Source: Thermoproteota archaeon | GTDB lineage: Archaea; Korarchaeota; Korarchaeia; Korarchaeales; Korarchaeaceae | NCBI GenBank assembly: GCA_027491395.1 | Contig: JAOZFI010000050.1 | Coordinates: 1 to 48,115 of the forward strand | Length of the DNA stretch: 48,115 nucleotides | Direction: 5' to 3' | Shown here: positions 32,615 to 42,187 of the stretch, in pieces | How the letters are laid out: every line of letters starts with the position of its first letter | How positions within the stretch are numbered: position 1 is the first letter of the stretch | The notes under the pieces: generated by a model | Database searches by the model: none | Seen by the model: the letters and a program-made list of their open reading frames with translations, nothing else | What the model was told of the DNA's origin: nothing | Position numbers and translations under genes: made by a program

Positions 32615-34567
32615 ATGAGGAAGATGTTCTGGTTACCAATCCTGTCCATAGCTGCGCTGACGTTGGCGTTCGCATTACTACCAGTGCTGGCTAACCCCGG
32701 GGAGGTCGGTTTCGGAGATGCTCAGAGCATCGAGGCATCAGCGCAGGAAGTTCTGGCTAGGGTGAGCCCGGAAACTAAGGCCTGTCTGAACTGCCACGCT
32801 GACCCCAATACTGTTAAGATGCAGGTTCCCTATTACGACTGGTTGAGGAGTAAGCACGCCTGGCATACTCCAGATGAACTGGAAGCCTATTACAGGAACA
32901 TCTTCGGAGAGGACGCCAATCTGGCCAGCAAGTTCAAGGGATACCCGTACGTCGTGGGATGTTATGAATGCCACGGAATGTTCGCCGATTCCGACAGGCC
33001 CGATGTCGTTGACCACAATGGCTACAAGATCGTGGTGGATGTGACCCCGAAGGACTGCCAGCAGTGTCACTATAAGGAGACCAAGGAGATGAGCTGGACT
33101 AAGCACGCGTTCGCCGCACTTAACGCTAACCTCAAGCCTTGGTACACCCTCGTACTCCAGAAGACCTATGGAGATGTCGCCAAGGCTGAATACGACAAGC
33201 TGTTCAAGGATGTGGTCGAGTGGCCGTTTTACAAGAAGTACGCGAAGGACTTCTATAACGGAGACGAGAAGGCCGTGAACGCGAGCAAGTACTACTTCTA
33301 CGGCGACAAGTTCAAGTTCGTATCGACCCTCTATCCATCTCACGGGATGCTCACTCACGAGGTGCCCAACCTGACCGCCAACTACTTGGGCATCGACTAC
33401 CACTTCATCATGGAGCACCCCAAGTACAACAACTCCTACGTTTACTTGGCCTGTATGGAGTGTCACGGCTCCGCAGTGCTACCGGCCAAGCCCAACGCCA
33501 TAGTTGGTGTTGACGCGCCCTATGCTAAGGTCGATGGCACTCCCGACATGGTGCTCCTCGGATGGCCCAACAACGGCGCTGGGAGGGTAAACCCCGACGG
33601 GAGCCTTGGCAGCTGCGCCACATGCCACACGAGACATACCTTCAGCATGGAGGAGGCTAGGAAGCCCCACACTTGTGGTCAGTGCCATCTCGGATATGAC
33701 CACCCGCAGATAGAGATCTACGAGGAAAGCAAGCACGGTAACATATACGATTCCGAGGGAGAATCTTGGAACTACACCAACCTGCCGTGGGTGCCCGGAG
33801 TGGACTTCAGGGCCCCGACCTGCGCTACCTGCCACATGAGCCACCTCGCCGACAAGAATGGCAAGATTATAGTGCCGGGAACTCACGACCTCGGAGCTAG
33901 GCTGACTTGGGAGATACAGGCCAAGTGGAGCTTCGGTCAGACGTACTATCCTGACCCACTGAACAACAAGTTCAATAAGAAGAGGCCAGACTGGAAGAAC
34001 CCGCTCACCATGGGCAACGCCGCCCTATCCTCGACTGACAACCCGAGGGGCAGGATGATGTCAGTGTGCAAGAGCTGCCACTCCAGCGAATGGGTGTACT
34101 CGTACTTCACTTGGTACGACAGCGTAAACATGGACTACAACATAACGTGGAAGTACGCAATAGACATGCTCAAGAAGGCCTACGAGCAGGGAATACAGGA
34201 GGATAGGAAGGGCCAGACCATAATGGATAGGAAGGCTTTGGGAGATGACACGGACGAGTACATGGAGATCATGTACTATTACATATGGCACCACGACGGC
34301 AGGAGGTGGAGGATGGGAGCCTCCATGATGGGTCCGGACTACACGCACTGGCTCGGTATAGTCGATACGGTCATGGACAAGCTAGGGAGGATGTCCGCCT
34401 ATTACGAGACCCAGCTCAAGATAAAGCAGCTGGAGAGCAAGGTTGAGAAGGTATCAGGAGCTGGCGTTGGCGCCGGAATGAACATGTTCACCTTCATAGC
34501 GACGGTGCTCTCTCTGGTGGCCATCGTGCTGGTCCTCATCGACATCCTAGTAAGGAGGAAGAAGTAA
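32615..34567 (+). CDS. Membrane-anchored octaheme c-type cytochrome, hydroxylamine oxidoreductase-like
   Basis: A 650-residue exported cytochrome with a signal peptide (about 1-26) and one C-terminal membrane helix (about 622-645, then VRRKK). Eight CxxCH sites start at Cys57, 116, 148, 280, 334, 354, 403 and 485, the octaheme count and uneven spacing of the HAO family. The C-terminal HHDGRRWRMGASMMGPDYTHW is also a typical HAO-family block. Members oxidise hydroxylamine or hydrazine, or reduce nitrite to ammonia; direction here is unknown, and whether the active-site crosslinking Tyr is present needs structural alignment. An upstream A/T-rich region (32465-32560) holds the likely promoter and GGGAGG precedes the ATG. 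The Ccm operon follows directly. Confidence 0.88.
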   Translation: MRKMFWLPILSIAALTLAFALLPVLANPGEVGFGDAQSIEASAQEVLARVSPETKACLNCHADPNTVKMQVPYYDWLRSKHAWHTPDELEAYYRNIFGEDANLASKFKGYPYVVGCYECHGMFADSDRPDVVDHNGYKIVVDVTPKDCQQCHYKETKEMSWTKHAFAALNANLKPWYTLVLQKTYGDVAKAEYDKLFKDVVEWPFYKKYAKDFYNGDEKAVNASKYYFYGDKFKFVSTLYPSHGMLTHEVPNLTANYLGIDYHFIMEHPKYNNSYVYLACMECHGSAVLPAKPNAIVGVDAPYAKVDGTPDMVLLGWPNNGAGRVNPDGSLGSCATCHTRHTFSMEEARKPHTCGQCHLGYDHPQIEIYEESKHGNIYDSEGESWNYTNLPWVPGVDFRAPTCATCHMSHLADKNGKIIVPGTHDLGARLTWEIQAKWSFGQTYYPDPLNNKFNKKRPDWKNPLTMGNAALSSTDNPRGRMMSVCKSCHSSEWVYSYFTWYDSVNMDYNITWKYAIDMLKKAYEQGIQEDRKGQTIMDRKALGDDTDEYMEIMYYYIWHHDGRRWRMGASMMGPDYTHWLGIVDTVMDKLGRMSAYYETQLKIKQLESKVEKVSGAGVGAGMNMFTFIATVLSLVAIVLVLIDILVRRKK

Positions 34568-34608: not shown

Positions 34609-34629
34609 CGAGGCGTGAGGGATCCCCCA

Positions 34630-35670
34630 ATGAGAAAGCTAGTAGCGGCGCTGGCTGTCACGTCACTAGCGGATGCTGCAACCCTGTGGATCTCCCAGGT
34701 GTTAGGCCCGTTTCCTTCCGTGGTTCCCTTAGGAAATCCGACCGCTTACAGGAACCTGTATGTGCATGTCCCCATCTCAGTGTCTACTTATCTACTCTTC
34801 ACCTTGGGATTCTTCCTAGCGCTCTCCTACCTCCTCAAGGGAAAAGGATGGATGGAGGAGATGGCCCATTCCTTCATATTAGCGGGCCTCGTGACGGGCT
34901 TCTCCACCCTAGTCACCGGCATGATATGGGCATCGGAATCATGGGGCTCAGCTTGGAACTGGGATCCCAGAGAGACAGGGGTCCTCTTCATGTTCTTAGC
35001 CTTCTTAGTTTACTTGGCTGTCAGGTCTAGCATAAAGGACCCTGATGTGAGGCCCAAGGTATCTATGGCCTTCGCCGTTGCCGCCTACGCCACAATCCCA
35101 CTGAGCTTCTTGGTCCCCTACTTGATGCCCAGCCTGCATCCCACCATGCCGGAGACCAGCATGTTCATCAGAGGAGGGCTCACTCCCCTGATCTTCGGGG
35201 GCAGAATAATCTTGGTCTCACTGGAAGGAGCACTCTTGGCCCTTCTTATTAGATCCGGAGGTGTGAGAGGCGCTAAGCTTGCGGTCATCCCGGTGGTTCT
35301 GGTGGCCGTGCTGTTGCTAGCGATGCAGCTGCCCCCCAACTTGGCAGGGGGCGAGACTCTCAAGGTCCAGGTGATATCTGGCACGATGGAGAACGGGACC
35401 CTACATCTGAAGGTGAGGTCTTCTCAAGGAACTTACGACCTCCTCTACAAAGGGAAACCACCGATAAATCCGCTTTTCGTCACATTCGGTGGGGGGAGGA
35501 GGCTAACTCTGGAGAAGCACTGGCTGCTGGTGGAAGGGAGGGTCGAGGACGGTACCATAGTGGCGAGCAGCCTGAAGCTGATACCCTATTGGGGGAATCC
35601 CGTCAACGCGATGATATACGCGCTAACCCTTTTCACCCTCGCCTACCTAGCAGGGAGGGAGAGGAAATGA
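34630..35670 (+). CDS. ccmC: CcmC-like heme-handling protein with an added CcmE-like OB domain
   Basis: Delivers heme to the chaperone CcmE in System I cytochrome c maturation. Residues 1-235 hold about six helices and the tryptophan-rich WWD motif WGSAWNWDPRETG (105-117); His46 (YVHVP) and His near 164 are candidate heme ligands. The next 95 residues are an outer-face domain with the CcmE order (LKVQVISGTMENGTL, YDLLYKGKPPINPLF, LLVEGRVEDGTIVASSLKL) but no heme-binding His or Cys, then a final helix. This CcmC-CcmE-like fusion is unusual. I chose the ATG at 34630 over the GTG at 34615 because of TATA spacing. Its stop overlaps the ccmE start (ATGA). Confidence 0.83.
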   Translation: MRKLVAALAVTSLADAATLWISQVLGPFPSVVPLGNPTAYRNLYVHVPISVSTYLLFTLGFFLALSYLLKGKGWMEEMAHSFILAGLVTGFSTLVTGMIWASESWGSAWNWDPRETGVLFMFLAFLVYLAVRSSIKDPDVRPKVSMAFAVAAYATIPLSFLVPYLMPSLHPTMPETSMFIRGGLTPLIFGGRIILVSLEGALLALLIRSGGVRGAKLAVIPVVLVAVLLLAMQLPPNLAGGETLKVQVISGTMENGTLHLKVRSSQGTYDLLYKGKPPINPLFVTFGGGRRLTLEKHWLLVEGRVEDGTIVASSLKLIPYWGNPVNAMIYALTLFTLAYLAGRERK

Positions 35671-36080
35671 AGGGAGTGTTGCTGGCAGCGTCCATAGCCT
35701 TGGTGGTCCTCTTGGTGGGATACATGGCCATAACCTCCAGCTCATATGAGCAGGTATCTCAGCTCGCCAAGTATAGGAAGCCCACGATGGTCACGGTCAG
35801 GGCCCTTGTGGCTGACATCAAGACCCTGCCCGAGAAGGATCTGATACTCTTCTTGCTGGAGGACGAGAACGGGAGCAAGATCTACGCCTTTTATGGCCTC
35901 ACTAGGTTTATCAGCCAGTACGGGGCCCCACCCTCTCACTCGACGGTGGAACAGGAGGTCATCATTAGGGGGATGTTCTATCCCGAGAGGATGGGAGATG
36001 TTCTGGGGAGGATGGAGATAAAGGAGATCCTGCAGGGGTGCCACAAGGCCTACGAGGCCCCTCCAGCCACGGGTGGTTGA
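35667..36080 (+). CDS. ccmE: Heme chaperone CcmE, Cys (CxxxY) type
   Basis: A 137-residue membrane-anchored OB-fold protein (helix about 3-22) that carries heme covalently from CcmC to CcmF. The OB strands run from PTMVTVRALVADIKTL to VIIRGMFYPER. The heme-binding residue is Cys125 in GCHKAYEAP, with Tyr129 four residues on; most bacteria use His in HxxxY, whereas CxxxY is the variant known from some archaea and sulfate reducers. The ATG at 35667 overlaps the ccmC stop; the longer ORF start inside ccmC is rejected. The ccmA start is immediately adjacent. Confidence 0.85.
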   Translation: MKGVLLAASIALVVLLVGYMAITSSSYEQVSQLAKYRKPTMVTVRALVADIKTLPEKDLILFLLEDENGSKIYAFYGLTRFISQYGAPPSHSTVEQEVIIRGMFYPERMGDVLGRMEIKEILQGCHKAYEAPPATGG

Positions 36081-36710
36081 GTGATACTCGAGTTCAGGGA
36101 TGTGTGGAAGAGCTTCGGGAGCGGGTACGTGATAAGGGGGATCACCCTCTCCTTAGGAAGGGGGGAGCTGGTGGCGATAGTAGGCCCCAATGGTTCCGGG
36201 AAGACCACCATCCTGAGGCTAGCCTCGGGCCTCATAGCTCCCTCGAGGGGAGAGGTACTAGTGGAAGGGAAGGATGCCAGAAGCCCCGCTGCCAAGGCCC
36301 TCCTAGGTTATGTCCCCCACTATCCACCCATCTACGGAGACCTGACCGTTCGGGAGAATCTGATATATTACGCGGGCCTCTACGGATATGCTGACCTGTC
36401 CAACGTAGAGCCCATCTTGAAGGAGCTCGGTCTGGACGCCTTCTTTGACAGGAGAGTCGTCGAGTTGAGTTACGGGTGGAGGAAGAGGGTAGATATTGTG
36501 AGGGCCCTCCTCCACGACCCACCCCTACTCCTTATTGACGAACCGTTCTCCGGACTGGATGACGCAGGGAGGAGGTGGCTGATCGAGTTCCTCACCCGGT
36601 TGGTGTCAGCTGGCAGGACAGTGGTCATGACATCTCCAAGGGCGGATGTGGAGCTGGAAGCGAAGGTGTACGAGATCAGGGAGGGAAGATTGAGTGCTGC
36701 TACAGGTTAA
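36081..36710 (+). CDS. ccmA: Heme exporter ATP-binding protein CcmA
   Basis: A 209-residue ABC ATPase. Walker A is GPNGSGKT (35-42), the signature is LSYGWRKRVDIVRAL (about 134-148) and Walker B is LLLIDEPFSGLDD. With CcmB and CcmC it drives release of heme-loaded CcmE rather than simple heme export. The start is the GTG at 36081, directly after the ccmE stop; ccmB begins 17 nt before its end. Specific assignment comes from the operon. Confidence 0.87.
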   Translation: MILEFRDVWKSFGSGYVIRGITLSLGRGELVAIVGPNGSGKTTILRLASGLIAPSRGEVLVEGKDARSPAAKALLGYVPHYPPIYGDLTVRENLIYYAGLYGYADLSNVEPILKELGLDAFFDRRVVELSYGWRKRVDIVRALLHDPPLLLIDEPFSGLDDAGRRWLIEFLTRLVSAGRTVVMTSPRADVELEAKVYEIREGRLSAATG

Positions 36711-37338
36711 GAGGATCCTGTGGAAAGACCTGAAGCTCGAGGCTAGGAACCTGCCAGAGCTGGGCGGAGCGGCCATATTCTCGGTGGCATCGTCCAGCTT
36801 GCTGGGCTTCTCACTAAGCAGGTTGTCGGTTGAGGATCCCCTTCCCTTTGCAGGTACCGGCCTCATGCTCATCGCCCTCTTCCTATCGGTCTTCACCTCG
36901 GTCATGACCGTTGTGAGGGAGGAGGATCTTGGCACGCTGGATGGAGTCAGGATGTCGCCCGTCGAACCGGTAACCTTCTTCCTAGCGAAACTCCTTCTTA
37001 CTTTCATCCTGTTGGAGACCCTGATCACGCTGTCCTTCCTGACCATCGTGGGTCTGTCTGGCTGGACCGAGGGAGCGATCTACCTCTATTCCCTAGTAGC
37101 CTCATCCGGGGTCTATCTGGCGTCAATATCGGCCCTATCCTCAGCTATTTCCGTCTACCTGAGAGCGAGGGGAGTTCTCTTACCTACCATGATCCTCGTG
37201 CTGAGCCTCCCGATAATTCAGGAGACCCTCTCATTCCTGACCTCTGGGGATTACTCTCGAACCGTGATACTAGCTACTTCGGGCCTCTTGTTCTCACTGA
37301 TCGCCTCTTGGTTGGCTGGTTACATTCTGGAGGTGTGA
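36694..37338 (+). CDS. ccmB: Heme exporter membrane protein CcmB
   Basis: A 214-residue permease with six helices. LLQVKRILWKDLKLEARN at the start and VREEDLGTLDGVRMSPVEPVTFFLAKLL in the middle (compare the RDEAGGTLDQLLLSP-type motif of bacterial CcmB) identify it. It forms the CcmA2B2 complex acting on CcmC/CcmE. The start is the GTG at 36694, overlapping ccmA by 17 nt; the thioredoxin-CcdA gene follows after three nt. Confidence 0.87.
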   Translation: MLLQVKRILWKDLKLEARNLPELGGAAIFSVASSSLLGFSLSRLSVEDPLPFAGTGLMLIALFLSVFTSVMTVVREEDLGTLDGVRMSPVEPVTFFLAKLLLTFILLETLITLSFLTIVGLSGWTEGAIYLYSLVASSGVYLASISALSSAISVYLRARGVLLPTMILVLSLPIIQETLSFLTSGDYSRTVILATSGLLFSLIASWLAGYILEV

Positions 37339-37341
37339 GTA

Positions 37342-38409
37342 ATGAGGGTAAGCTATCAGAACATCTTGGCCATTGTCATCGTGCTGACGTCCGTGGGTCT
37401 CGGCCTCCTAGTCTCCTTCAGCAGCAAGGGTGTTGCCATACAGATCTATGCAGGGGAGCTGGACAGGCAGCTCAAGGAGGGAGTAGTGGCCGTCATGTTC
37501 TGGAGCGAGACCTGCTCCTCCTGCGAGTTGATGAAGCCCTACTGGATGCAGGTGGAGGCCTCTCCGCCCGAGGACGTCCGCGTGATGGATGTGCCCCTCG
37601 TTCCCGGGGAGACTGACCGGCTCTTCATGGAGTACGGGGTCACGGAGACCCCCACCTTCTTAGTCCTCAGGGAGGGCGCCGTGGTGGCCAAGATCGTGGG
37701 CCCGGTTCAGTCCGACGACCCGGCCCTATACTTCAGGAGATGGATAGAATCAGCTGCTAAGATGGCGAGTACCTCCGAAGAGCAGGTCACGGGATGGGAA
37801 CCGGCCACACTTGCCCTTCTCCCATTCTTGGGTGCGCTGGTCGCCCTATCTCCCTGCTCGGCGCCTATAGTCGCTGCCTACGCCACCATGAGGAGGGTGA
37901 GGGGGAAGGGAGATTACGCTGTCTGTCTGGGATCCTCGTTCTTCGGTACAATGGTTTTGGGTTCTCTCATGGTCGTTGCCGCTTCCTTCGTGGCGGGCCT
38001 CATCAAGGGATTGACCTTCGCCCTAGCCGTGGCCGCCATACTTTTCGGGTCGCTCACCATCTTCACTGCCTCTGAATCCTGTCCTTTACCGGGCCAGAGG
38101 GTGAGAGGGTTACTATCATCCGGCCTACCAGCGGCGTGCTTCAGCTTCGGTCTGGTATCCCTTCAGTGCAGCCTGCCCTTGCTCGCTGGCTACATAGCCC
38201 TCATAAGCGCGACCGGTGATGTGCTCGGCGGGGTAGCGGGCGTGGCTCTGCTCGCCCTAGGCATGGCAGCCGCGCTTGTCGCCTCCCTCTACTTGGCGAA
38301 GAGGGCGACCGGAGCCTTCTCCAAGGCCATGAAGAACCCCGCTTGGCTGGAGAGGATAAGCGGTGGTATTCTCGTAGCCTTGGGCATCTACCTCCTGCTT
38401 GTGGGGTGA
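37342..38409 (+). CDS. Thioredoxin-CcdA fusion protein (thiol transport for apocytochrome c)
   Basis: Residues 1-28 are an anchor, 30-145 an extracytoplasmic thioredoxin domain with active site C58-SS-C61 (WSETCSSCELMKPYW) and cis-Pro in TETPTFLVL, and 155-355 a CcdA-like unit of about six helices with the two reactive Cys, C172 (LSPCSAP) and C276 (VSLQCSLPLLAGY). Electrons from cytosolic thioredoxin would pass through the CcdA part to the fused outer thioredoxin and reduce CxxCH cysteines before heme attachment. Fusion places CcdA and CcmG-like roles in one chain. It lies within the ccm operon, three nt after ccmB. Confidence 0.85.
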   Translation: MRVSYQNILAIVIVLTSVGLGLLVSFSSKGVAIQIYAGELDRQLKEGVVAVMFWSETCSSCELMKPYWMQVEASPPEDVRVMDVPLVPGETDRLFMEYGVTETPTFLVLREGAVVAKIVGPVQSDDPALYFRRWIESAAKMASTSEEQVTGWEPATLALLPFLGALVALSPCSAPIVAAYATMRRVRGKGDYAVCLGSSFFGTMVLGSLMVVAASFVAGLIKGLTFALAVAAILFGSLTIFTASESCPLPGQRVRGLLSSGLPAACFSFGLVSLQCSLPLLAGYIALISATGDVLGGVAGVALLALGMAAALVASLYLAKRATGAFSKAMKNPAWLERISGGILVALGIYLLLVG

Positions 38410-38413
38410 ACTC

Positions 38414-41400
38414 ATGCATTACACGGGATTGATAGCTCTTATGGGCGGCGCGATCCTCCTCGCCGACCTCGCTTACTCCTCGATCAAGAGGAGGATCATC
38501 AAGCTCGGACTCGTGGCCTACGCGATCCTCCTCGCCGACTGGCTCCTCTACGTGTGGGCCTTTGTGACTCAGGACTACACGCTCAAGCCCGTCTACGAGA
38601 CATCTTCCATAGGGCTCCCCCTCATGTTCAAGATAGCCTCGAGCTGGTCCAGCGGGGGCGGGAGCCTCTTCCTCCTGACCACGGTCCTGACCACCGTGGC
38701 ACTCATCCACAGGAGGTACCACAGGGATACAATGCTGAACGCCGGATACGGCGCACTGATAATCTCATCCCTAGCCCTGGCGTTCCTGAACGGTGCATTC
38801 GAGTCCTTCCACGGTGATGTGGCGACCGGCATGGGGCTGAATCCCCTGCTGAAGAGCCCTTGGATATATCCTCATCCCCTCTCGACCTTCACAGCCTACG
38901 CCTTGATCGCTGCCTCAGCCGTCTCCCTGTACAGCGGGCACGAGAAGGCAAGTGATCTACTGGCTAGGACCGGATGGCTCCTACTGACCTTGGGTATAGC
39001 TATAGGGGGCTACTGGAGCTACGTTACCTTCGGATGGGGTGGCTACTGGGCTTGGGATCCGGTGGAAACGGCTGAGTTGACTCCTTGGCTTGCCCTAACT
39101 GCGGCATTCCACGTCAAGTCCCTAGACAGGAAGCTCTCCTACGCTACTCAGATGGCCGCAGCGGGTAGCGTCTTCTTGGCTATACTCGTCACCAGGGTGG
39201 GCATCTCTCCCCTCCACAGCTTCGCCTCCCCCCAGTCCATGACCAGCGCTTTAACGCTTCTATTAACCTTCCTCTTCATAGCCGAAGGCATAAGAGGATC
39301 TCGAGGGGCTGGTATCGGGATAGGGAAAGTGACCTCCAGCCCCTACAGGACAGGACTCGTCCTCTCTTACTTCTCTCTGTTTATGATGTTCTTGGTGCTC
39401 TTCTCGGTGCTTGCTGGCGGGTCCATAGGCAGCGTCTTGGGTATGAGGGTCGATGTTCCACAGATGGACTCCGGTATAGAATTCTTTCACCAGTTACTTT
39501 TCCCCTTCGCCCTCCTGCTCATGGTCTCCCTCCCGATGTGTACCATAGGGGCGAGACTCGGATGGAGGGAGATACTGGGTGTCATTGAGGGCCTCTCAAT
39601 AGTGTCAGCTATCCTGCTCTACCTGGCCTTCAAGAGGGACATCATATGGTCACCGGCTAGCTCGCTCACCACGAACCTCATCATATCCATAATGCTTCCC
39701 TTCACCGTAGCTGGCCTCTTCTCAGGGCTGGCGGCCCTCTACATCTACGCTAGGGACAGGTTGAGTACCATGTCCTCGGTGTCGCTTCTGCATGCCGCCA
39801 TGGCCCTCACGATGCTCGGCGTACTCATGAGCGGACCCTTCGCCTACAACAGATCCTACTTCAGGGATATCACACTCCCCTACTATCGGGAGCTGGATGT
39901 GGACGGATTGGGGATGAAGCTTAAGGGATACGAGTACAGCCTCTACGGCGGTAAAGTGGACCTCTATACCCCCTACGTTGGGAGATCGGACATATACAGG
40001 AGGGCGAGCCTTACCATGCTCTCCTTGGCGATCAACTTCGGCGATGCCCTACGGGAGATGAAGGAGGGAGAGAAGCGACTGGAGGAGACCGGCATCCTAG
40101 GGATATATAGGGACCTCAAGGGGGGTGTCAGGATGAGTGGGAGCTACAGGGCCAACGCCAGCGCCGTCTTGACTGAGGTGAGCAATGCTTCCAAGGAATC
40201 CAAGGATTTGGGCGAGGTGTCCGTCTCCGTCTCGGATCCCGTGATTGCGTCCTTCTTGGGCGCCAGTGCTAATGAGACCACCCTCAGGATGATAGTAGTG
40301 GGAAACGTGACCCTCGGAGGGAACCTGACCTCGATTAGGGCCTCCCCAGCCGTGATGATTAACCTCACCTTCCAAAGACCCCTAATCCTGAACGCTCCCG
40401 AGGGGACGGTGGAGATAGGGAGGGCATCCATCGTATTCTTCGACATGCTGAAGCAGGGTCACTCCCTACCCAAGAACCTCAACGGCACCATAGTGGCCCC
40501 AAACTCGACTCTCGTGATAGAGAAGGGCGTTTATCACGGAGAGAGGGATGTGGAGATACCGGCAACCATTAGAGGGAGGGACGTGGTCCTCTACGTTGCG
40601 TTCACCCAAGGAACAATCTCCTCCGATGTCCTGAAGATACTCGAAGATCACGGTCTGTCCAGACTGCTTACCAACGAGACATTCGCCTCTAAGCTGTTGA
40701 GTGACCTGCTTCCAGGGAACTGTAAGGAGCTCGTCCACGAGCGTCAGGGGGCGGCCATCAACTGCCTAGGATACCTCCCAATACCGAAGGAGCTGCCGGA
40801 GGGTGCGAAGCTCTCCCTCACATTGGAGGCCGGAGACTCGGAGGAGCTTCTGGAGATAAGGTTCGATGCCAACGGCGAGGCTCAGGGCATCCACGGCCTA
40901 GTCGCCCACGTGCTGACCCTACCTAGCGGTCTGGGCGACCTTTACATGGTGTTCCATCCTCCCGTCGTCAAGGACAGGAAGTGGAGCATAGGCTTCCACG
41001 AGCTAATGGTTTACTACCTCCACGAATCGTTCAGGGGGCTTAACGAGGAGCAGAAGCTTGCCTTAGCTTCTCTCTTCGCCTCGGCTTACTTGGGTCAGTC
41101 CGTCCAAGAGGAGATGATGCTGCCCTACACGTTGGACCTCTACGATCTGGCCCACCGCTTCGATCCCTCTAACTCGACCCTCATGACCTCGGGCGCGTTC
41201 CTTCAGGTGAAGGTGATACCGTACGTCCAACTGCTGTGGTGGGGGATAATCCTAATGGCCCTTTCAGAGCTCTACCTGATCATAGAGGGGATGAGGAGAT
41301 CCAGAACGACCTCAGCCCCCGAGGAACAGCAGACCAACTTGAGCCGGGAGCCAGAGGGAGATGGGAATGGTGAGCCCGGGGAGGGACCTCCCGGCCCTGT

Positions 41401-41422
41401 AAAGGACCCAGAGAGTCAGTAG
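38414..41422 (+). CDS. ccmF: CcmF-like cytochrome c heme lyase, greatly enlarged
   Basis: The synthase joining heme from CcmE to CxxCH. Residues 1-470 hold the membrane core: SSWSSGGGSLFLL in place of the usual WGGHEGS block, GMGLNPLLKSPWIYPHP (139-155) with a candidate heme His, and the WWD motif GWGGYWAWDPVETAELTPW (207-225). After the HAAMALTMLGVLMSGP segment, about 450 residues of outer-face beta domains with many N-x-S/T sites follow, then one helix (near 945) and a Pro/Glu/Gly-rich tail. Bacterial CcmF is about 650 residues. The ATG at 38414 has GGGGTGA upstream. The tail's DNA overlaps the convergent protease gene by 111 nt. Confidence 0.85.
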   Translation: MHYTGLIALMGGAILLADLAYSSIKRRIIKLGLVAYAILLADWLLYVWAFVTQDYTLKPVYETSSIGLPLMFKIASSWSSGGGSLFLLTTVLTTVALIHRRYHRDTMLNAGYGALIISSLALAFLNGAFESFHGDVATGMGLNPLLKSPWIYPHPLSTFTAYALIAASAVSLYSGHEKASDLLARTGWLLLTLGIAIGGYWSYVTFGWGGYWAWDPVETAELTPWLALTAAFHVKSLDRKLSYATQMAAAGSVFLAILVTRVGISPLHSFASPQSMTSALTLLLTFLFIAEGIRGSRGAGIGIGKVTSSPYRTGLVLSYFSLFMMFLVLFSVLAGGSIGSVLGMRVDVPQMDSGIEFFHQLLFPFALLLMVSLPMCTIGARLGWREILGVIEGLSIVSAILLYLAFKRDIIWSPASSLTTNLIISIMLPFTVAGLFSGLAALYIYARDRLSTMSSVSLLHAAMALTMLGVLMSGPFAYNRSYFRDITLPYYRELDVDGLGMKLKGYEYSLYGGKVDLYTPYVGRSDIYRRASLTMLSLAINFGDALREMKEGEKRLEETGILGIYRDLKGGVRMSGSYRANASAVLTEVSNASKESKDLGEVSVSVSDPVIASFLGASANETTLRMIVVGNVTLGGNLTSIRASPAVMINLTFQRPLILNAPEGTVEIGRASIVFFDMLKQGHSLPKNLNGTIVAPNSTLVIEKGVYHGERDVEIPATIRGRDVVLYVAFTQGTISSDVLKILEDHGLSRLLTNETFASKLLSDLLPGNCKELVHERQGAAINCLGYLPIPKELPEGAKLSLTLEAGDSEELLEIRFDANGEAQGIHGLVAHVLTLPSGLGDLYMVFHPPVVKDRKWSIGFHELMVYYLHESFRGLNEEQKLALASLFASAYLGQSVQEEMMLPYTLDLYDLAHRFDPSNSTLMTSGAFLQVKVIPYVQLLWWGIILMALSELYLIIEGMRRSRTTSAPEEQQTNLSREPEGDGNGEPGEGPPGPVKDPESQ

Positions 41423-42079
41423 GATACCTGCATCAAGGGCTGCCAAGGGTAAGATGGAGAGGTATGTGGGAAGGGACCTGAATGAGACCGCTGCAGCCAT
41501 GGAATAGCAGAACACATCCCCCATCCCCATGGAGACATCTCCGTGGAACACCATTAGGGGATCCAAGGGATCCTCTTGGGAGACCATCAGGAGCTCGCTC
41601 AACGGTCCCCTGAAGACTGAATAAGCATCGTATAGGGCGAGACCCCCGAGGAGGAAGTATATGAAGAGGTCATTGAAGAAGACCACGAAGAGGTAGGCTA
41701 GCGAAGCTGAGAGGAGTGACTTAGCCAAATTACCTATCAGGTCCCTGCGAAAGCTCAGCCAAGCGATTGCAACTGATATGAGTAGCTCTAGGGGCCAAGG
41801 AAATGATATGAAGGCGCTTATAAGGGTGTCCAAGGAGACAAGCGTCGAATAAACGAAGAAGATACCTATCATTATCCGTATAAGCCGAACCATCTTCCTT
41901 CTGACCAAGTAAACCATCAGGACGGCCATACCGAATACCAGCACTATGTAGACTAGAGAGAGGCCAGCAGACTCTTGAACAGATAGTTCGACTTCCGGCT
42001 GGGGTCTAGTGCTTAACACCACTAGTCCAGCAAATATCTCGGCCAGAAGAGGCCAGAGAATAACAGAATACCTTTCCAC
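41312..42079 (-). CDS. Presenilin/signal peptide peptidase-like intramembrane aspartyl protease
   Basis: A 255-residue protein with about nine helices. The two catalytic Asp motifs of the family are present: D151 in LALYDAYSVF (YD) and D188 in SMGMGDVFCYS (GxGD). SLPGLTIPISL near residue 233 is the weaker PAL-like third motif. Archaeal members (formerly DUF1119) cleave helices within the membrane; natural substrates are unknown. I chose the GTG at 42079 because GGAGGG lies six nt upstream; the ORF extends to 42124. It is convergent with ccmF, and its last 111 nt, encoding the PAL region, lie antisense to the ccmF tail. Confidence 0.83.
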   Translation of the reverse strand: MERYSVILWPLLAEIFAGLVVLSTRPQPEVELSVQESAGLSLVYIVLVFGMAVLMVYLVRRKMVRLIRIMIGIFFVYSTLVSLDTLISAFISFPWPLELLISVAIAWLSFRRDLIGNLAKSLLSASLAYLFVVFFNDLFIYFLLGGLALYDAYSVFRGPLSELLMVSQEDPLDPLMVFHGDVSMGMGDVFCYSMAAAVSFRSLPTYLSILPLAALDAGILLTLWVLYRAGRSLPGLTIPISLWLPAQVGLLFLGG

Positions 42080-42187
42080 CGCTAACCCTCCTTCCTCCCT
42101 ATTACCTGTCCACTTGATGACCACAACTGGCCAAGAGGTTTAAATTTCTTTACAAGAGAGTAGGAGCTGACAGGGTGCTTAAAAAAT

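Follow-up and report, generated by a model that had tools for sequence, protein, structure and literature searches.

Bacterial CcmF normally works together with CcmH, and the question raised by this locus is how a CcmF-like protein with a greatly enlarged extracytoplasmic domain could attach heme in an archaeon in whose genome no CcmH is found. The gene lies at 38414..41422 (+) of the window, which here means the whole analyzed stretch of 48,115 nucleotides, and its open frame encodes 1002 residues, beginning with an MHYTG start that is kept in relatives. The protein matches Pfam PF01578 over the cut-off (6e-17), NCBIfam TIGR00353 (CcmF/NrfE) under the curated cut-off (3.4e-30) and the PDB entry 6zmq of Thermus thermophilus CcmF (5e-17), while Pfam CcmF_C found no match in it. 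We are highly confident that it is a member of the CcmF/NrfE family with the anatomy described below, and from the family and the operon we infer that it attaches heme to apocytochrome c. That so large a CcmF results from a frameshift, a misassembly or the fusion of a gene pair is practically ruled out, because the identical architecture recurs in independent assemblies of many species, some of them single-contig genomes. As an overall explanation, we give a probability of about one half to an archaeal System I heme lyase that does without CcmH, has an intact membrane core and uses its enlarged domain for the docking of partners.

The operon has the order ccmC, ccmE, ccmA, ccmB, a thioredoxin/CcdA-like gene and ccmF. 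The ccmC gene (34627..35670, +; PF01578 and TIGR01191) encodes a C-terminal extension of approximately 115 residues, which is extracytoplasmic, includes an extra hydrophobic helix and is found in many related archaeal CcmC proteins. By eye this extension is suggestive of a CcmE-like OB domain, but the hhalign probability of 0.3% speaks against this assignment. The following ccmE (35664..36080, +) is not matched by the Pfam CcmE profile and was recognized by its position and by a CxxxY motif (CHKAY) that is conserved in relatives, with GCHKAY or GCHSSY found in the CcmE of the window and its relatives. The genes ccmA (36081..36710, +; TIGR01189 at 4e-37, just under the cut-off) and ccmB (36694..37338, +; PF03379, just over the cut-off) are followed by a gene whose product joins a thioredoxin with a CSSC motif to a polytopic membrane domain containing Cys-Pro motifs like those of CcdA (37342..38409, +). 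This gene is directly upstream of ccmF here and lies upstream in 28 related loci; PF02683 does not match its product, which possibly represents a divergent CcdA family linked to the expanded CcmF. For Pyrodictium, it has been suggested that a gene of the CcdA superfamily close to ccmF serves as a functional CcmH (PMC5556600). The operon is preceded by a gene for a membrane-anchored octaheme cytochrome of the HAO/HDH-like type (32615..34567, +), identified by profile searches and carrying eight CXXCH motifs. Relatives of this cytochrome are encoded near expanded ccmF genes in the Pyrodictiaceae and Desulfurococcales loci L034, L036, L055 and L056. Cytochromes were counted within the window, and the octaheme protein is a probable client of the neighboring CcmF.

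The first-pass annotation had suspected an altered heme-ligand region in this protein, as the usual WGGHEGS segment reads SSWSSGGGS. The replacement itself is present as claimed (residues 76-84; 38639..38665, +, by alignment), but the worry about heme ligation is unsupported, since the segment holds no heme ligand, the WGGHEGS histidine is variable across CcmF (present in 2 of 11 standard-type proteins compared) and the four actual ligands are in place. Alignment with E. coli CcmF, which rules out a change of heme ligands, identifies H154 as P-His1 (E. coli H173; 38873..38875, +), H233 in model helix 7 as TM-His1 (E. coli H261; 39110..39112, +), H268 as P-His2 (E. coli H303; 39215..39217, +) and H460 in model helix 14 as TM-His2 (E. 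coli H491; 39791..39793, +). All four are kept in 17 of 17 CcmF proteins compared and are each invariant in the 33 sequences of the family alignment. The roles of these histidines have been described before (PMC10663686, PMC10746174, PMC8975832); one of these studies prints TM-His2 as residue 461 (PMC8975832), while the E. coli residue found here is 491. Together with P-His1 and P-His2, the WWD heme-handling segment is also present as GWGGYWAWDP within TFGWGGYWAWDPVETAELTPW (residues 205-225; 39026..39088, +; from sequence and family conservation). The AlphaFold model, for which 33 homologues were used, places the helices TM1 to TM14 of the membrane core in residues 1-478 (38414..39847, +) and has 15 transmembrane helices in all, as many as have been described for CcmF of T. 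thermophilus and of E. coli (PMC10746174).

What distinguishes the protein is the region behind this core. After TM-His2 there are 542 residues, compared to 156 in E. coli CcmF, 143 and 169 in two further bacterial CcmF proteins and 152-195 in most other archaeal ones, resulting in an excess of approximately 350-390 residues. This bears out the earlier estimate of a roughly 350-residue excess as well as its placement between the last core helices and the final helix, as the enlargement sits between TM14 (451-478) and TM15 (938-966) in the model and increases the extramembrane domain about fourfold, from approximately 110 to approximately 460 residues. The model is confident for the whole protein (mean pLDDT 88.3, pTM 0.80) and for residues 479-936 modeled alone (pLDDT 91.6, pTM 0.84). 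The structure prediction that had been suggested as a check thus yields more than a standard ectodomain: a MAFFT alignment that includes CcmF of E. coli and further standard-type proteins shows that the standard beta domain is retained and is split by two inserts, and the ectodomain matches standard CcmF with an hhalign probability of 97% (E 5e-11).

The first part of the standard beta domain comprises residues 484-516 (39863..39961, +; AlphaFold strands and MAFFT with E. coli CcmF). It is followed by insert 1, an alpha/beta element of approximately 276 residues (517-792; 39962..40789, +; AlphaFold) that consists of a long helix, a long-stranded all-beta block (577-720) and further helices (722-784). 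The second part of the standard domain (793-848; 40790..40957, +; AlphaFold, MAFFT and hhalign) carries the clade signature with the consensus IRFEANGExQGIHGLV at residues 815-830, in which R816, G821, E822, G825, I826, G828, L829 and V830 are shared by all 33 sequences. Insert 2 is a helical element of approximately 79 residues (849-927; 40958..41194, +; AlphaFold and MAFFT), after which the last standard-domain strand and TM15 follow (928-966; 41195..41311, +; AlphaFold, MAFFT and hhalign). The mean pairwise identity is 32% in the first part of the beta domain, 44-51% in its second part and last strand and 33% in insert 2, while insert 1, with 19-22%, is fast evolving. The C-terminal tail (967-1002; 41312..41422, +, stop codon included) is of low confidence (pLDDT < 50). 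The part of ccmF encoding this tail is precisely overlapped by a convergent open frame of 270 residues (41312-42124, -), whose YD and GMGD motifs resemble those of presenilin-like intramembrane proteases and which finds no match in Pfam; the overlap is preserved in several close relatives.

The inserts have no recognizable relatives in the collections searched. Pfam gave nothing significant for either insert, the ectodomain profile found no match among the PDB sequences, and in structural comparisons the enlarged domain matched neither a PDB fold (Foldseek) nor an entry of a viral structural library at E <= 0.001. The full-length model has 6zmq as its sole PDB match at this threshold, and the superposition is loose (TM 0.57 by target, rmsd 19 A) and thus unfit for residue-level claims. 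CcmH is characterized by a CXXC motif in a three-helix bundle and CcmE by an OB fold with an H/CxxxY motif, and a resemblance of the new region to CcmH, CcmE or the TPR part of CcmI had been considered at the outset. None was detected: hhalign revealed no relation of the inserts to E. coli CcmE, CcmG, CcmH or the CcmI TPR part, with probabilities of at best 2.2% for CcmI TPR and below 1% for CcmH and for the CcmE OB fold, there is no CXXC within the insert, and the PDB fold matches include no TPR and, among the matches listed, no CcmE. A domain of any of these four proteins inside the insert is therefore ruled out by hhalign and Foldseek. An internal duplication of the beta domain was likewise not found by hhalign.

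The extra region is indeed rich in glycosylation sequons, as had been noticed in the first reading. Residues 476-930 contain 11 of them and residues 1-475 none, with 2.3 expected in 476-930 from composition shuffles, of which none out of 5000 reaches 11. This high density suggests an alternative in which the inserts form a glycosylated shield or spacer that stabilizes, protects or positions CcmF in a hot pseudo-periplasm under the S-layer and has no role in heme attachment. Such a function would suit the fast evolution of insert 1, which has no known fold, and the fact that carriers are mostly from groups known as thermophiles. Passive shielding would not, however, require the good conservation of insert 2 and of the signature, and although relatives commonly hold 5-14 sequons, these are almost absent in some members (one each in L033 and L051). 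We therefore regard this alternative as unlikely, if still worth serious consideration.

It had also been proposed that the new domain may replace CcmH and CcmI in presenting the apocytochrome. CcmH (PF03918) was found neither in the source genome nor in 22 others with an expanded CcmF (23 in total), in a search in which control genomes matched as expected, and to this extent the proposal holds. It is weakened by the situation in other archaea, where CcmF commonly occurs without CcmH (PMC4429474, PMC9084895). In another archaeal phylum, CcmH was detected in 9 of 119 genomes, and several genomes there with CcmF and without CcmH have a CcmF of standard size. As most archaea with a standard-size CcmF also lack CcmH, its loss is not tied to the inserts. 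Methanosarcina acetivorans, moreover, requires only CcmABCEF (PMC9084895).

A further point against replacement is provided by the cysteines. The sole conserved pair in the insert, Cys770/Cys784, is present in 15 of 33 sequences and missing altogether in the other 18, and never does one of the two occur singly, a pattern that looks like that of a dispensable structural disulfide. The pair is invariant in the near kin of the window's protein, which could point to a built-in CcmH whose redox dithiol reduces or holds the apocytochrome. Apart from the all-or-none distribution and the absence in most of the family, which largely refute a CcmH-like dithiol, the 13-residue spacing and the variable loop between the cysteines are unlike the CXXC of CcmH, and we consider a built-in CcmH very improbable.

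To place the expanded form within the family, relatives were sought in 84,980 genomes by two core peptide patterns. The resulting 42 relatives, a non-exhaustive count, are nearly all from Desulfurococcales, Pyrodictiaceae, Acidilobaceae, Aeropyrum, Pyrobaculum and the window's own group. Among Thermoproteota, 24 of 299 genomes matched, with CcmF-like open frames near 637-669, 708-786, 865-904 and 966-1052 residues, and in the window's phylum the expanded CcmF is present in 9 of 29 genomes; in another archaeal phylum (246 genomes), the longest open frame among the matches listed has 809 residues. In a tree computed from the membrane core alone, with ectodomain and inserts excluded, 50 expanded CcmF proteins form a single clade with an SH-aLRT support of 100. 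The expansion is thus a character of a whole archaeal clade (Thermoprotei and the window's phylum) and not, as the first reading of a single protein had it, a peculiarity of one sequence or of the source genome. Most simply, the sequences suggest that the enlargement arose once.

Two types of smaller relatives are informative in this respect. With a bacterial root, the core tree places three proteins of the L012 type as sister to the expanded clade; these L012/L080-type archaeal CcmF proteins have a tail of 184-195 residues and possess neither insert 1 nor the signature. A Thermoproteales type with a tail of approximately 310 residues falls inside the expanded clade and differs from the full form in that it has insert 1 only partially, while the signature is kept (ARFDASGELKGIRGLV in L067). 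This type may be either an intermediate or a reduced form (AU p 0.14). The P-His2 loop is one residue shorter in the expanded CcmF, the L012 type and the ~310 type. A separate and smaller TM14-TM15 insert occurs in a CcmF of another archaeal lineage (L019:400-2691, -), which has 271 residues after TM-His2 and lies outside the expanded clade in the core tree; this insert has a faint OB-fold match that stays under the cut-off (E 0.06).

Some carriers encode a pair of CcmF proteins, which are either alike or different in size. This observation, together with the HAO-like gene that belongs to the same cluster here and lies close to ccmF in several further loci, could be explained by a client-specific lyase that resembles NrfE beside CcmF, with the domain recognizing certain multiheme cytochromes, for example the HAO-like octaheme protein. 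The source genome (1.7 Mb, 98% complete), however, has only one ccmF, so that its product must serve every c-type cytochrome, and many expanded ccmF loci have no HAO-like gene nearby. Client specificity is thus improbable.

With the bacterial CcmF/NrfE proteins (6zmq of T. thermophilus and the E. coli protein), the expanded CcmF shares the 15 transmembrane helices, the WWD segment, P-His1 and P-His2, TM-His1 and TM-His2 and the TM14-TM15 beta domain, and it differs from them by the two inserts and the signature. With the archaeal variant System I, reportedly described by Allen et al. in 2006, it shares the CxxxY-type CcmE and the lack of a detected CcmH. M. acetivorans differs in having a five-component CcmABCEF system with CcmF split into two genes (PMC9084895), in contrast to the one large CcmF and the adjacent thioredoxin/CcdA-like gene here; whether CcmF by itself performs the task of CcmFH was left undecided in that study (PMC9084895). 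No description of the expanded form was found in the open-access full-text literature searched.

In the heme lyase without CcmH that we favor, the WWD/P-His site of CcmF would accept heme from the CxxxY-type CcmE, and the enzyme would then attach it to the CXXCH motifs of exported apocytochromes, with the adjoining octaheme cytochrome as a likely client. The enlarged and probably glycosylated domain would lie over the active site and contact the apocytochrome and/or holo-CcmE, thereby making contacts that CcmH and CcmI make in bacteria, and the co-encoded thioredoxin/CcdA-like protein may, judging from the gene neighborhood, keep the CXXCH cysteines reduced. That the enlarged domain docks the apocytochrome and/or CcmE is suggested by its location, flanked by TM14 and TM15, and by the absence of CcmH and CcmI; we propose this role tentatively, at somewhat less than even odds. 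Against it counts that standard-size archaeal CcmF functions without CcmH (PMC9084895), which makes the inserts dispensable for this, and also that no fold or sequence link of the ectodomain to any apocytochrome-binding domain emerged from the PDB, the viral library or hhalign. The more far-reaching view that the insert is a new fold binding both the apocytochrome and holo-CcmE, so that a single protein does the work of bacterial CcmF, CcmH and CcmI, appears doubtful to us.

The expanded proteins represent a well-defined clade within CcmF: their large ectodomain is predicted with confidence and is structurally unmatched, no CcmH was found with them, and relatives of intermediate size exist. 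They bear on how archaea attach heme without CcmH and CcmI.
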